A stretch of DNA of 64,000 nucleotides from Aggregatilinea lenta (GTDB lineage: Bacteria; Chloroflexota; Anaerolineae; Aggregatilineales; Aggregatilineaceae). Each line of letters starts with the position of its first letter. Position 1 is the stretch's first letter. Location: positions 2,666,001-2,730,000 of the forward strand of contig NZ_BFCB01000003.1 of assembly GCF_003569045.1 (NCBI RefSeq), in the 5' to 3' direction. A program made the position numbers and the translations under genes. This document shows, piece after piece, positions 40,546 through 45,990 of the stretch. The notes beneath the pieces are model-generated. The model was not told the DNA's origin, searched no databases, and worked only from the letters and a program-made list of their open reading frames with translations.

Positions 40546-40804
40546 TGACTTGCTTACCTGCTTTCTCGTCCAGATTGTGACGCGAAGGTGGAATATTTCG
40601 CACGCAGAGATGCTAGCGCAGCGCGCGGAGTGCCGCAACTTGGTAGCGGGTCGCGAAAGCTGATGGCAGGCTGACATTTGCCGGATGTTTTGCCCTGAAC
40701 TACAACTTCCGGCGAAATATATGCGTAAATAGAGGTGGAGGCCGCTGAGGTTCAACGCGGCGGTCGTTACGTGGTATGATCGGGCAAGTTCAAGGGTGGA
40801 AAGC

Positions 40805-41581
40805 ATGTTTCAGCACAGCTCTCGTGGAACAGCCGTCTGGCTGATAATCGTCGGTCTTGCGCTGGCGCTCACACTCATCGCCGGGGAAATCCCCGCTGCT
40901 GCGGCTGCGCTGCTGCTGGCTGCCTACCTGGCGCTGGCGTACGTGGTGACGCGCCGCGTGGAGGTTGGCTCGATTATCGAGTCGCTGCCCCGTCCACCCG
41001 CACGCCAGGCCCAGGCGACCGAGGTCGCCCGAGAGGCCAGCGGACGTGCGAGTAACCATCCCCGCTTTGACCCGCTGGTGCACCTGCTGGACATCGGCCT
41101 GATCGTGGACGAACAGCGGCCCGATGGCCTATCGCTGCGGCGCGGGCGCTTCATTTCGCTGGACGACGACGGCGTCCGCCCGTTCGCGATCGTGGACGTG
41201 CCGGAAGGCATCGGGGATCGCATGGCGCGCATCCGGTTTGAGATCCGCGACGAAGACGGCAAGCCGCGCTATGTCTACGAGGACGACAAGTGGCTGCGCG
41301 CGGGCGAAAACGCCCTGCTGCCGGATTACCGGCTTCCGATCAGTGGCAACGAGTCGCAGCTGGGAGCGGGAATGTGGATCATGCGCGTCCAGGTGGACGG
41401 CGGCATGCTGGGCATTCACAACTTCAACCTGTCCCCCTCGCTGAGTGAGCGCCGCCGCCAGTTATCACCAGATGGCGAGCTGCGCGAGCGGGTATGGCGC
41501 AGCGAGGAAGAAGACGTCGCGCTGCCGCTGAGCCTTGAGGAACTGCTGCGGCAGCAGAGTCAGCAGCACCGGGCGAGGTAA
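40805..41581 (+). CDS. Membrane-anchored beta-domain protein 1 of the E1-E2-JAB locus
   Basis: 258 residues. Two close hydrophobic segments (about 9-48) anchor it, followed by a mainly beta soluble domain (about 85-215). Its core pattern LLDIGLIV, RIRFEIRDEDGKPRY, WLRAGENALLPDYRLPI and WIMRVQVDGGMLGIHNF resembles an Ig-like sandwich. The C-terminus (about 216-258) is charged and helical. The next two genes encode proteins of the same plan. The ATG at 40805 follows AAGGGTGG; a GTG three codons upstream is an alternative. First gene of an eight-gene operon; TATGAT at 40775 may be its -10. No known family recognised. Confidence 0.72.
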   Translation: MFQHSSRGTAVWLIIVGLALALTLIAGEIPAAAAALLLAAYLALAYVVTRRVEVGSIIESLPRPPARQAQATEVAREASGRASNHPRFDPLVHLLDIGLIVDEQRPDGLSLRRGRFISLDDDGVRPFAIVDVPEGIGDRMARIRFEIRDEDGKPRYVYEDDKWLRAGENALLPDYRLPISGNESQLGAGMWIMRVQVDGGMLGIHNFNLSPSLSERRRQLSPDGELRERVWRSEEEDVALPLSLEELLRQQSQQHRAR

Positions 41582-41591
41582 CCGTACTCAT

Positions 41592-42269
41592 ATGAACGGC
41601 GTGATCTTTATCCTCCTCATTTTGGCTGTCCTGGCAGTTCTGTTTCTCGTGACCTCTTCGGGCCAGACCCAACCGGCGTCGCGCCAGGGGTACAGCCAGA
41701 AACGCAAGATGCAGGCAATTGATCAGGACCTGCACCCGGTGGCGCGGGAAGCGATGCGTCGCGCGGGTTACGGCGCGGACGCGTCGTACGTGCAGGTGGC
41801 TGACATCGGGCTGCTGGCCTATCGCAACACGTCCGACGGCAAAGTGATCCGTGCAGGCGACGTGCTGGTGGACTCGCGCTATCTGCGGCCCTTTGCCGAG
41901 CTGTGGCTGCCCTACGCGGCGGCGGGCAGCGTCCGGTTTGAGATTGCGGACGGGGGCGGGCGGCTGCGGTATGCCGACGAGGCGCAGTATGAGCTTCAGC
42001 GCGGGGTCAATACCGTGCTGCCGGGCACGTGGCTGCCGCTGGAAGGAAAGGCGATTGAGCCGGGCGAAGACTGGACGCTGCGACTGATGGCGAGCGGTAC
42101 GCTGCTGGCCTCGCACCTCTTTGGCTGGGAACCGGTCGGCGGCGGCACGATTCAGCAGTACGTGGCCGGGGACGGTGAACTCAGCCCGGCGCTGCGAGAA
42201 GCGGTGCTGCGTGCCGAGTCGCGCAGTGCGGTGAGCCTTTCGGAGTTGCTGTCGGATCAGGGCGAGTAA
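41592..42269 (+). CDS. Membrane-anchored beta-domain protein 2 of the E1-E2-JAB locus
   Basis: 225 residues. One N-terminal membrane helix (about 3-22), a short basic linker, and a beta domain (about 60-190) that shares order and motifs with protein 1: VADIGLLAYR, SVRFEIADGGGRLRY, LQRGVNTVLPGTWLPL and WTLRLMASGTLLASHLFGW. It begins 10 bp after the previous stop with GAGG about 13 bases upstream. The C-terminal helix ends SLSELLSDQGE, parallel to LSLEELLRQQ in protein 1. It does not end in a Gly-Gly tail. Confidence 0.72.
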   Translation: MNGVIFILLILAVLAVLFLVTSSGQTQPASRQGYSQKRKMQAIDQDLHPVAREAMRRAGYGADASYVQVADIGLLAYRNTSDGKVIRAGDVLVDSRYLRPFAELWLPYAAAGSVRFEIADGGGRLRYADEAQYELQRGVNTVLPGTWLPLEGKAIEPGEDWTLRLMASGTLLASHLFGWEPVGGGTIQQYVAGDGELSPALREAVLRAESRSAVSLSELLSDQGE

Positions 42270-42312: not shown

Positions 42313-43092
42313 ATGACTTACAAGGAAAAGCGGAAGCGCAGCCCCTGGCAGCCGCCTCAGTTGGCGCGACCGTCCGGTGCGGCGATCGTCGGCAGCTCGG
42401 CTATTGGGGCGCTGGCGCTGTACGCTCTCCTGTCCGGCGACGTCTGGGTCGCGGCGGGATGGGGCATGGCCGCCATGCTGATTTTCCTCGTGGTGCTGGC
42501 GGTGTACTTCTGGGGATCGCTGGTGTTTGGCGGCACGCTGAGCGCGTTCGGCAGCAGCAGGCCCGTGCCGTGGACGTTCGGCGCAGTCGAGGATGCCACG
42601 CACGACATCGATCCGGGCATCGAAATTCTGTCCGCCGGGGTGCTGGCCTACTACGATGATGTGGCGGAAGCCGTGCCGTGTTTCCGTACGGTTCCGGCGC
42701 GTGGACTGCGTGCGGTGCGACCCTTCCTTGTCGCGCGTAGCGGCATGGACGAGATGCGCGACTTTGAATTTGAGCTGGTGGATGCGCACGATCGCGCCCG
42801 GTTCCGGCGGCGGATCGAGCAGGCGCTGAGCAGCACGCCGGGCCTCGTTATCCTGCCCCTGCCGCTGGCGCTGGCGTCTGCGAGACCGGAGCTGGTATGG
42901 GGCTGGCGCGTGCGATCCGGGATCACGGTGCTGGCGACGTTTCACATCGACCTGACTGACGAAACGCTGCGACACAGTGGGATGTTGGAAGACGCAGGTG
43001 GCGATCACGGTCCGTTGGGTGTCTTGCTGCACGAGCTGGCCACACGTGAACCGGCTGACCTGCCCGTTGAAAGGCTTCAGGAGGGGGTATGA
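42313..43092 (+). CDS. Membrane-anchored beta-domain protein 3 of the E1-E2-JAB locus
   Basis: 259 residues. A basic N-terminus (MTYKEKRKRSPW), two membrane helices (about 24-75), then a beta domain (about 95-220) with the same order as proteins 1 and 2 though more diverged: IEILSAGVLAYYDD, DFEFELVDAHDRARF, EQALSSTPGLVILPLPL and WGWRVRSGITVLATFHIDL. The stop overlaps the ATG of the E2-like gene (ATGA), which ties the membrane proteins to the conjugation genes. Confidence 0.72.
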   Translation: MTYKEKRKRSPWQPPQLARPSGAAIVGSSAIGALALYALLSGDVWVAAGWGMAAMLIFLVVLAVYFWGSLVFGGTLSAFGSSRPVPWTFGAVEDATHDIDPGIEILSAGVLAYYDDVAEAVPCFRTVPARGLRAVRPFLVARSGMDEMRDFEFELVDAHDRARFRRRIEQALSSTPGLVILPLPLALASARPELVWGWRVRSGITVLATFHIDLTDETLRHSGMLEDAGGDHGPLGVLLHELATREPADLPVERLQEGV

Positions 43093-43568
43093 GCAGAGGA
43101 AGCTGGTGGGGAAGCCCCGATCAGGTTTCGACCCGGCTGCGGCTGGAGGTCGAGCTGATGCGGGCGACTTTCGCCGATACGTTTCGCCTGATTGTGCCAA
43201 AGCGCGAGCTGCTGTACTGGCAGGGCGATGTCGAGATTAATATGCACGGCATCCCGCAGCGGCTGCATACGCTGAAGATCATCTATCCGGTGGAGTATCC
43301 AAACCGCCCGGCAGAGGCGTATGTGATCAAGCCGACGGTTTACAGCGAAAAGCATCAGTTTGAAGACGGGCAGTTGTGCCTGTTTAACCCGAAGGACGGG
43401 GTGACGTACGGCTGGAATCCGAGCACCTCGACTGCCGTCACAGTGGCGGGCTGGGCGGTCGAGTGGCTGTACTCGTACTACACCTGGCGGTCCACGGGGG
43501 TGTGGCCGGGCGTCGAGGAGCAAATGCCGCCCAGCAAGGCGCCGCGCAATAAAAGGAGACGGTCGTGA
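43089..43568 (+). CDS. E2 (ubiquitin-conjugating enzyme)-like protein
   Basis: 159 residues with a UBC fold. After an N-terminal helix (TRLRLEVELMRATF) come strands with YWQGDVEINMHG, the hallmark IIYPVEYPNRPAEAYVI (YPxxYPxxP), and the active-site stretch KHQFEDGQLCLFNPKDG with His89 and Cys97. A C-terminal WAVEWLYSYYTWRSTGVWPG matches the W-rich end common in bacterial E2s. It should take a modifier from the E1-like protein onto Cys97 as a thioester. The ATG overlaps the previous stop and the stop overlaps the next start (GTGA). A basic tail (PRNKRRRS) may contact the membrane. Confidence 0.85.
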   Translation: MSRGSWWGSPDQVSTRLRLEVELMRATFADTFRLIVPKRELLYWQGDVEINMHGIPQRLHTLKIIYPVEYPNRPAEAYVIKPTVYSEKHQFEDGQLCLFNPKDGVTYGWNPSTSTAVTVAGWAVEWLYSYYTWRSTGVWPGVEEQMPPSKAPRNKRRRS

Positions 43569-44770
43569 GCGAGGTCAAACAGGAGAATCCGAGGTACGAC
43601 ATGCCACGCGTCGTCGTGGCGCAGCGCGTGATCGACAAGATCACACGGGGCGCGCTGCTGTACCCTGAGCCGGAAACCGGCGAGGCGATGATCGGGTTGG
43701 TCGTGTCGCGTCCGGGGCAGTCGGAGCCGGAGATTTACATCCTCGACACGATCAGTCCCGGCGAACGTGCCGTGCGCGAGTGGGGCATGTTCGAGCAGGG
43801 CGACGATTGGCAGGGCGACGTCTTCCACTGGCTGTACATCAACTGGGAGACCTACCGCGCCCAGCGGCGCGGCTCCTATGGGAATGCGGTCGCGGCCAAG
43901 TGGGACGTGCCACTGGCGCACGTGGGCGACTGGCACAAACAGCCGGACGACATGATCGAGCCGTCCGGCGGCGACCTGATGCAGGCGCGGCGCATGATCA
44001 ACGACGCGGAAACGCCGATTGCGCAGGTCGTCGCTCCGATCGTGACGATGTACTCGCTGAAGCACGCGAAGCCAGTCGAGGTTGCCGTCGAATCCGCTGC
44101 CGAATCCGGAGCGTCGAGTGAGGCCGCGTCGGAACCAGATGGTGACGACCCAGCGCCGGAAACAGAAGTGGCTGAAGCGTCCACGCCCGCGCCGGAGCGG
44201 GTTCAGGTGACCGAATACCTGATGGGCGTGCAGCCGCCGCCCCCTGCGCCGGGCATGGTGACCGTCGAAAGGCCGGGCGAAGGCTGGCTGATCCGCATCG
44301 ACTTTTGGTACACCAGCCGCCGCCTCAAGCGGTTCGCGCGGCTCGTGCCGGAAGTGTGGCCGGATGACCGTTTGCCGGGACTGCCACCGCTGGCGTGGCA
44401 TCTGGCGCATCCGCGCCGCTTCGACCAGGAGTACAGCCTGCTGGCGCAGGCGGGTTATACCGTGGACGTGGTGCGCTGGGACGCGGACGGCAAACCGCCA
44501 TACGAGATTTGTTTCTCGGTGTACAAGCCTGGCAATCGCTACGCGATCCTGCTGGTGACGTCCATCGATTACCCGACTTCGATGCCTGCCGCGCGCGTCG
44601 CGCCGATGGTCACGGCAACCGAAGACGAAGATCTGTTCGAGAAGCTGTATGATGCGTCGTCGCCGCTGCTGATCACGCAAATGCCGGAGTGGCCGTGGGA
44701 TTCCAAGCGGACGCTGCTGGAGCTGATGTGGCACTTCGAAAAGACGCTGAAAGAGGATAGTGTGGTATGA
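43565..44770 (+). CDS. JAB/JAMM-like protein fused to a second UBC/RWD-like domain
   Basis: 401 residues. Domain 1 (about 10-165) is JAB-like: EPETGEAMIGLVVS supplies the Glu (E37), and GDWHKQPDDMIEPSGGD supplies His124, Ser134 and Asp137, but the second His of the JAMM motif (HxH) is Gln126. A Pro/Ala/Glu linker (about 168-230) follows. Domain 2 (about 235-400) looks like an E2/RWD fold: YEICFSVYKPG, then AILLVTSIDYPTSMPAARV with the YPxxxP turn, and a final helical WDSKRTLLELMWHFEK; no catalytic Cys is present. It may remove or process the modifier, or bind it without cleavage. GTG start overlaps the E2 stop. Confidence 0.78.
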   Translation: MSEVKQENPRYDMPRVVVAQRVIDKITRGALLYPEPETGEAMIGLVVSRPGQSEPEIYILDTISPGERAVREWGMFEQGDDWQGDVFHWLYINWETYRAQRRGSYGNAVAAKWDVPLAHVGDWHKQPDDMIEPSGGDLMQARRMINDAETPIAQVVAPIVTMYSLKHAKPVEVAVESAAESGASSEAASEPDGDDPAPETEVAEASTPAPERVQVTEYLMGVQPPPPAPGMVTVERPGEGWLIRIDFWYTSRRLKRFARLVPEVWPDDRLPGLPPLAWHLAHPRRFDQEYSLLAQAGYTVDVVRWDADGKPPYEICFSVYKPGNRYAILLVTSIDYPTSMPAARVAPMVTATEDEDLFEKLYDASSPLLITQMPEWPWDSKRTLLELMWHFEKTLKEDSVV

Positions 44771-45663
44771 CGTGGGATCGGGTGGAACGGCTGCTGGGCG
44801 AGGACGTGCTCGGCTTCTTGCGCACGCAGACGGTGGGCATTATCGGCCTGGGATCGGGCGGCAGCTTTGCGGCGGTCAGTCTGGCGATGAGCGGCGTGGG
44901 GCGCTTCATCCTGGTTGACGACGACGCGCTGGAAGCGACCAACATCGTGCGGCATGCAGCGGACCGGCGCTACCTGGGCCAGACCAAAGTGGAGGCTGTG
45001 GCGGACCTGATCCGCCAGCGTAACCCGTCTGCCGAGGTGAAGGTTGTCGTGGGGCGCATCGAGGCTCACGCCGACCTGTTTGACGAGATGGATCTGGTGA
45101 TCTCCGGCGTAGACGGCGAAGGTCCCAAGTACCTGATCAATCAGGCATGCCTGGACCGTGGACGCACCGCCGTATACGCAGGCGTGTACGAGCGCGGTGA
45201 GGGCGGTGACGTGTGCGTCATTGTGCCGGGGCAGGGGCCGTGCTACGCCTGCTGGGCCGAGCATCTGCGCGAAGGGCTGGCCGATCCCGGCGCGGAGCCT
45301 GAGCTGGATTACGGCATGATCGGGCCGGAAGGCACGCTGTCCGCCGAGCCGGGGCTGTGGCTGCACGTGGTCCGCATCGCGTCGTCGCAGGCCGATATGG
45401 CATTAAACGAACTGGTGCAAGGCTTTGACGTGCACCGCGAGATGCCTGGCAACACGGTCGTGCTGGCGAATACGTGGCTGGAAATCTATGAGGGCCGGAC
45501 GACGCTCCCGTACGGCGCAGAGTGGCTGACCATTCCGCGCAATCCGGACTGTCTGGTGTGCGGCTCGATGTACCGGGAGCAGGACAGCGCCCAGGTCTCG
45601 CTGGACGATCTGATCAACCTGGGTCAGGTGTCGTACGAACAGGATGAAAGCGAAAGCAGCTAG
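44767..45663 (+). CDS. E1/ThiF/MoeB-like activating enzyme
   Basis: 298 residues. The adenylation domain shows the P-loop-like GLGSGGS (27-33), ILVDDDALEATNIVRH (48-63) with Asp, Asn and Arg of the ATP site, GQTKVEAV (71-78) and LVISGVDG (110-117). Two CxxC pairs (C159/C162 in GPCYACW, C262/C265 in PDCLVCGS) form the usual structural zinc site. It would adenylate the C-terminus of a modifier and pass it on. The region between about 170 and 250 is unlike MoeB and no transfer Cys is evident, so transfer to the E2 Cys may be direct. The ATG overlaps the JAB stop. Confidence 0.87.
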   Translation: MTWDRVERLLGEDVLGFLRTQTVGIIGLGSGGSFAAVSLAMSGVGRFILVDDDALEATNIVRHAADRRYLGQTKVEAVADLIRQRNPSAEVKVVVGRIEAHADLFDEMDLVISGVDGEGPKYLINQACLDRGRTAVYAGVYERGEGGDVCVIVPGQGPCYACWAEHLREGLADPGAEPELDYGMIGPEGTLSAEPGLWLHVVRIASSQADMALNELVQGFDVHREMPGNTVVLANTWLEIYEGRTTLPYGAEWLTIPRNPDCLVCGSMYREQDSAQVSLDDLINLGQVSYEQDESESS

Positions 45664-45693
45664 TGCAAGCGGGTGACGCAAGAGGATAACGCG

Positions 45694-45990
45694 ATGAGTG
45701 AAGACAGAATTCCGCCTGTTGAAGATGAAATTCCAGGGACGCCAACCGGGGAGCCAGCCGCGCCGCTGCCGGATGACGGCGTGCAAGGCCCGTCGACCGA
45801 AGATCTGGGTCCGCGCCTGGAGCGGTTGGGTGGGGAACCCGCGCCGGACATCACGCCGGAGGAGTTCGCCCGGCTGCAGGAAGCGGGACAGATCCACATC
45901 GACCCGCGCGGGCGGGTCCGCACGACACGCCGCGACGAAACCGACGCCGGTATCTCGCTGCGTAAGCGCCGCGCCTGGTATGCCGCATGA
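45694..45990 (+). CDS. Small charged protein of the E1-E2-JAB locus
   Basis: 98 residues. The first half is acidic and Pro-rich, the middle has a short helix (ITPEEFARLQEAGQ), and the tail is basic and ends LRKRRAWYAA. No beta-grasp fold or terminal Gly-Gly is visible. It could be a substrate, an adaptor or an unusual modifier; all three are guesses from position. The ATG at 45694 follows AGAGGA at good spacing and the stop overlaps the Nudix ATG (ATGA). Confidence 0.7.
   Translation: MSEDRIPPVEDEIPGTPTGEPAAPLPDDGVQGPSTEDLGPRLERLGGEPAPDITPEEFARLQEAGQIHIDPRGRVRTTRRDETDAGISLRKRRAWYAA

Follow-up and report, generated by a model that had tools for sequence, protein, structure and literature searches.

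Genes of the E2-JAB-E1 operon

The window, a stretch of 64,000 nucleotides from Aggregatilinea lenta (NZ_BFCB01000003.1, positions 2,666,001 to 2,730,000), contains an operon in which an active-type E2, a JAB fusion protein and an E1-like enzyme are encoded one after the other, with genes for membrane proteins upstream and a gene for a small protein downstream (Table 1). Overlaps of 4 nt join the last membrane protein gene to the E2 gene, the E2 gene to the JAB gene (GTGA, shared with the E2 stop) and the JAB gene to the E1 gene (ATGA, shared with the E1 start).

Table 1. Positions in the window of the operon genes and of the parts of the JAB fusion protein.
Feature	Position	Strand	Details and basis
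Membrane-anchored paralogue of the 41592..42269 protein, tail LPLSLEELL	40796..41581	+	Cross-matches
Membrane-anchored protein, C-terminal tail VSLSELL	41592..42269	+	ATG at 41592; the listed ORF, from 41535, starts at an upstream TTG
Membrane protein with N-terminal hydrophobic segments	42313..43092	+	4-nt overlap with E2 start
Active-type E2 (UBC), Cys97 in HQFEDGQLCLF	43089..43568	+	PADLOC E2 models to 5e-16
JAB/MPN and predicted pseudo-E2 fusion protein	43565..44770	+	401 amino acids, GTG start
First part of JAB/MPN fold, residues 13-165	43601..44059	+	AlphaFold; BRCC36/Rpn11 matches; motif conservation
Disordered, non-conserved insertion within the MPN fold at the Ins-2 position, residues 169-221	44069..44227	+	pLDDT < 50; gaps in most relatives
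Last MPN-fold strands, residues 231-265, including GWLIRIDFWYTSRRLKRF	44255..44359	+	AlphaFold strands; extent of MPN matches
Predicted pseudo-E2/UEV-like domain, residues 267-401	44363..44767	+	AlphaFold, VIA-align, Foldseek, hhalign
E1-like ThiF-family adenylating enzyme	44767..45663	+	Pfam ThiF 3e-33
Small protein, no known family	45673..45990	+	Travels with E2-JAB-E1

The E2 is a UBC domain with an invariant catalytic-type cysteine; Cys97, His89 and His60 were each conserved in 91 of 91 relatives, and the protein matched PDB entries for UBE2L3 at 6e-5 and the bacterial E2 8hsb at 5.3e-5. In the E1, Cys159, Cys162, Cys262 and Cys265 were found in all 85 relatives and form two CxxC pairs, which are presumably zinc ligands (cf. 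ThiF/MoeB). As no cysteine outside these pairs is invariant, an E1 thioester is not evident, and the E1 may hand an adenylated modifier directly to the E2. The small protein has a variable and probably disordered N-terminus and a strongly conserved tail, ERLGGEPAPDITPEEFARL...SLRKRRAWY, which with its GGEPAP and KRRAWY elements is among the best-conserved parts of the operon; it may be a substrate, an adaptor or the precursor of a modifier.

No ubiquitin-like protein was matched by Pfam or NCBIfam models among the operon proteins. The genome encodes two ThiS/MoaD proteins, both outside the operon and one of them in the moa cluster. A MoaD/ThiS-like protein encoded on its own at L141:1468-1740, outside the moa cluster, has SGG as its C-terminus and is a possible modifier for the E2-JAB-E1 system.

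The E1 ends in VSLDDL, and similar SLxxL tails close two of the membrane-anchored proteins (sites at 45594-45663 for the E1, and at 42230-42269 and 41540-41581 for the two membrane-anchored proteins). The motif [ILVMPT]SLx[DEQAN]L was present in 72 of 88 E1 tails and in 30/31 and 27/27 tails of the two membrane-anchored proteins, against one of 295 other ORFs, itself a further paralogue; as the motif was picked after viewing the tails and related sequences were counted several times, the background count is descriptive. The shared tail is likely to be a common docking site, putative as that assignment is.

Of the order's 154 genomes, 135 carry the E2, as do 87 of the 90 good genomes among them, and the JAB gene adjoined the E2 gene in all loci fetched. 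Twelve genomes from three families without the E2 also yielded neither the JAB nor the small protein, in searches run without a same-run positive control. More distant E2s occur in the class Anaerolineae. Outside the order, no JAB-pseudo-E2 protein was seen in samples of 400 and 350 Chloroflexota genomes, one weak partial match (E 0.002) aside. The E2-JAB-E1 set is a core-genome system of one Anaerolineae order of the Chloroflexota. That the operon forms part of a mobile defence island was considered and rejected, as the JAB was absent from phage and plasmid records, had no relative in IMG/VR and accompanies an E2 present in 135/154 genomes. A link to a proteasome was likewise rejected, because the genome of the window gave no match to PF00227 in a search whose control was positive.

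Architecture of the fusion protein and fold of its second domain

AlphaFold was run for the full-length fusion protein on 11 relatives and returned an MPN fold, a disordered stretch (residues 169-221), a set of strands within residues 231-265 (231-236, 241-251, 258-260 and 263-265) and a second domain. In VIA-align the MPN part matched BRCC36 and Rpn11 with Z of 13-14, the best match being the BRCC36 complex 5cw3 (Z 14.3), and these matches ran from about residue 11 to residues 263-280. The strands that follow the disordered stretch therefore complete the MPN fold, and residues 169-221 are thus an insertion at the position where Ins-2 sits in JAMM/MPN proteins (PMC9313428). The first-pass annotation, which had begun the second domain at 44257 (about residue 235), consequently set this border some 35 residues too early, residues 231-265 being MPN strands and the second domain starting at about residue 267 (44363). 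The sequence strings on which it relied were recovered in the 401-residue ORF, with YEICFSVYKPG at residues 313-323, AILLVTSIDYPTSMPAARV at 326-344 and WDSKRTLLELMWHFEK at 378-393.

Across 80 relatives the segment that the first-pass annotation gave to the second domain was conserved, R244, P271, W278, E289, T332 and P337 being present in every relative and P341 in 78 of the 80; the linker ahead of the domain was not conserved. Judged from these alignments, the conserved segment is more than a product of chance.

As a structure search with the full-length model probes the MPN part only, residues 267-401 were folded separately, with AlphaFold on 10 relatives. The resulting model (pLDDT 83.5, pTM 0.77) has a helix, four strands with the YPxxxP turn and two helices, an alpha-beta4-alpha order. 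Two Mediator rows aside, nearly all of the best 50 VIA-align rows for this model were UBC/UEV-type entries, headed by the TSG101 UEV with 105 aligned residues at 3.5 A and Z 9.2, a value of about 9 that lies only moderately over a background of 7 to 8. Other matches were Ube2w (Z 8.5), the bacterial BubCD (9eae_C, Z 8.1) and Mms2/Ube2V1 (Z 7.0-7.6). Foldseek placed the TSG101 UEV in ranks 1-8, although at E-values of 0.1-0.44 that are not significant.

Sequence profiles provided evidence that is independent of the AlphaFold model. An alignment of the domain from 80 relatives was compared by hhalign with one of the operon E2 from 91, which gave a score of 36.1, a probability of 79.8 and, for this one comparison, an E-value of 1.5e-5; 60 column shuffles of the E2 scored at most 21.3, and the other operon families (E1, JAB, membrane proteins, small protein) at most 20.7. 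The match began at helix 1, kept the YPxxxP turn in register and ended with strand 4, ahead of the E2 active site. Only deep alignments gave a signal, shallow ones of 11 sequences giving none (E 0.07). Among 52 domain members, one matched Pfam UQ_con (E 0.01, the best Pfam match of any member) and one a PADLOC E2 model (E 0.0044). With no curated Pfam E2-fold model reported over its cut-off for the domain of the window, we file the domain as UEV-like and not as a member of the Pfam UEV family.

On the structural model and these profiles, residues 267-401 very probably adopt an E2 fold. This agrees with the proposal of the first-pass annotation that the C-terminal domain resembles an inactive E2/RWD fold: the AlphaFold model and structure search that it had called for as a check gave a UBC/UEV-type protein as the top match, and the profiles tie the domain to the E2 of the same operon. 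Convergence of an alpha-beta fold with no kinship to E2s would accommodate the weak Foldseek E-values and the absence of any E2 when PDB sequences were searched with the profile of the domain, but is very improbable given an hhalign score against the protein's own E2 well over those of the 60 shuffles and the unrelated families, with helix 1 to strand 4 and the YPxxxP turn aligned in register.

The domain is also, as its sequence directly shows, without an E2-type catalytic cysteine. The sole cysteine of the fusion protein, C316, falls in strand 2, away from the position of the E2 active-site residue, and Cys97 of the E2 has no counterpart in residues 267-401, in keeping with the earlier remark that the active-site region holds no cysteine.

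The altered JAMM site

The metal site of the JAB domain reads E40 ... H124-K-Q126-x7-S134-x2-D137, with HxQ in place of HxH. By definition, a JAMM motif has the form ExnHxHx7Sx2D (PMC9313428); the complete motif is absent from the JAB of the window, the MPN fold being present. E40, H124, S134 and D137 were invariant in 80/80 relatives, and position 126 was occupied by Gln in 68 of the 80 and by His in the other 12, with no other residue found. His at this position characterizes one whole family and two separate single lineages. On a tree of E2 and E1 from 75 loci, which was rooted on its most divergent member and has weak support at several deep nodes, parsimony requires three changes, from Gln to His or the reverse. 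The codon concerned lies at 43940-43942, and the natural Gln/His exchange was noted at L108, L059 and L060-L062. Through such a natural swap, the role of this metal ligand of the JAMM site can be probed directly.

Because the second zinc-binding histidine is Gln in this protein and in most relatives, cleavage is doubtful. The earlier suggestion that the fusion would place cleavage beside the enzyme of conjugation is unsupported in that form, as it presumes an active JAB and yet the site is HxQ. A site in decay would not be expected to retain its remaining motif residues so strictly. Since all of these residues are invariant, we infer that the JAB may be a slow or altered isopeptidase, or else a module that binds the modifier.

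A different explanation is that the JAB simply works as an active isopeptidase in which Gln126 serves as a zinc ligand, the pseudo-E2 only aiding folding or dimerisation. We consider this rather unlikely: four motif residues are fixed at 80/80 and position 126 is always Gln or His, with His in one family and two single lineages, but the JAMM definition given above demands HxH, and Gln is an unusual zinc ligand.

Proposed role and comparison with known systems

By analogy with the behaviour of UEV and RWD domains elsewhere, we propose that the JAB/MPN domain is fused to a catalytically dead UEV-like domain acting as a docking arm within a core-genome E2-JAB-E1 operon, a reading that we favour with some reserve. 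The pseudo-E2 would hold the JAB on the conjugation machinery, and docking might take place via the active E2, via the modifier in its activated form or via the short tails of operon proteins, an arrangement that would be like that in BRISC, where UEV domains of BRE lie next to BRCC36, the JAMM enzyme.

Another possibility, the heterodimer suggested in the first-pass annotation, is that the pseudo-E2 pairs with the active E2 encoded upstream and positions the acceptor, as in the Ubc13-Mms2 pair, with the JAB as a passenger or editing domain. The two proteins are encoded in the same operon by overlapping genes and are present or absent jointly, and the structure search matched both Ube2V1 and Mms2. 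However, TSG101-type UEVs match better (Z 9.2 versus 7.0-7.6, where a gap of 2 is weak evidence), and are not known to pair with an E2 in the Ubc13-Mms2 manner; we hold such a pair to be improbable, about on a level with the active JAB discussed above.

The TSG101 UEV binds PTAP peptides, and the pseudo-E2 could in the same way be a peptide reader of the SLxxL tails of the E1 and membrane proteins, or of GGEPAP in the small protein, giving a membrane-linked complex. This would fit the tail common to the E1 and two membrane proteins and scarce among other ORFs, the strong conservation of GGEPAP and the best structural matches, which are to the TSG101 UEV and in several cases include peptide. 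The tails might instead bind another partner, however, and many loci of the largest family keep the pseudo-E2 although these two membrane proteins are not recognisable upstream of the E2, so that we give peptide reading somewhat less weight still than the Ubc13-Mms2-like pair.

Returning to the docking arm, one may tentatively go further and picture an order of bacteria that relies on a housekeeping, membrane-linked system of ubiquitin-like conjugation in which no classical ubiquitin-like protein takes part. The E2, the E1 and a single-chain JAB-UEV protein, acting as controller and having a non-canonical metal site, would run this system, and shared SLxxL tails would hold it together; we rate this wider scheme as possible rather than probable. 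Bacterial ubiquitin-like systems so far have mostly been of patchy distribution and often tied to defence. The near-universal presence of this system throughout an order, mostly as a single copy, suggests a role in cell physiology.

Among known systems, Bil/Bub shares bacterial ubiquitin-like conjugation, and BubCD (9eae_C) is itself one of the structural matches of the pseudo-E2 (Z 8.1); the operon described here differs in having a fused JAB-pseudo-E2 and no recognised ubiquitin-like protein of the BilA/BubA kind. Type II CBASS comprises Cap2 (E1-E2) and Cap3 (JAB) (PMC10097602), and E1, E2 and JAB functions there likewise stand for conjugation and its reversal; the E2 of the window is also related in sequence to the bacterial E2 8hsb. 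In contrast to CBASS, the E1 and E2 are separate proteins, the genes belong to the core genome and not to a defence island and the JAMM site is altered; Pfam, NCBIfam and PADLOC searches detected no CBASS CD-NTase or effector gene among the operon proteins.

Iyer et al. (2006) described bacterial operons 6a-6e, of which 6e encodes a polyUbl with an inactive E2/RWD-like domain and a JAB-E1 fusion, and proposed for bacterial operons other than the present one that such inactive domains bind the modifier (PMC1779556). There too an E1 and a JAB are encoded together with an inactive E2-like domain, but this domain stands alone or is attached to polyUbl, whereas that of the window is fused to the JAB, and the window operon additionally has an active-type E2 and lacks a recognised Ubl gene.

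In BRISC and BRCA1-A, BRE, with its UEV and RWD domains, adjoins BRCC36 and binds subunits and ubiquitin (PMC7692841), so that a JAMM/MPN domain is again found alongside catalytically dead E2-fold domains. The animal domains lie on separate subunits of one complex, whereas here they are joined in one polypeptide, which is bacterial, adjoins its own E2 and E1 genes and has an altered JAMM site. The predicted JAB-UEV fusion indicates that JAMM domains are paired with dead E2 folds in more than eukaryotic complexes and, if the wider scheme outlined above is correct, the system would be a bacterial one-chain analogue of BRISC logic that evolved outside phage defence.
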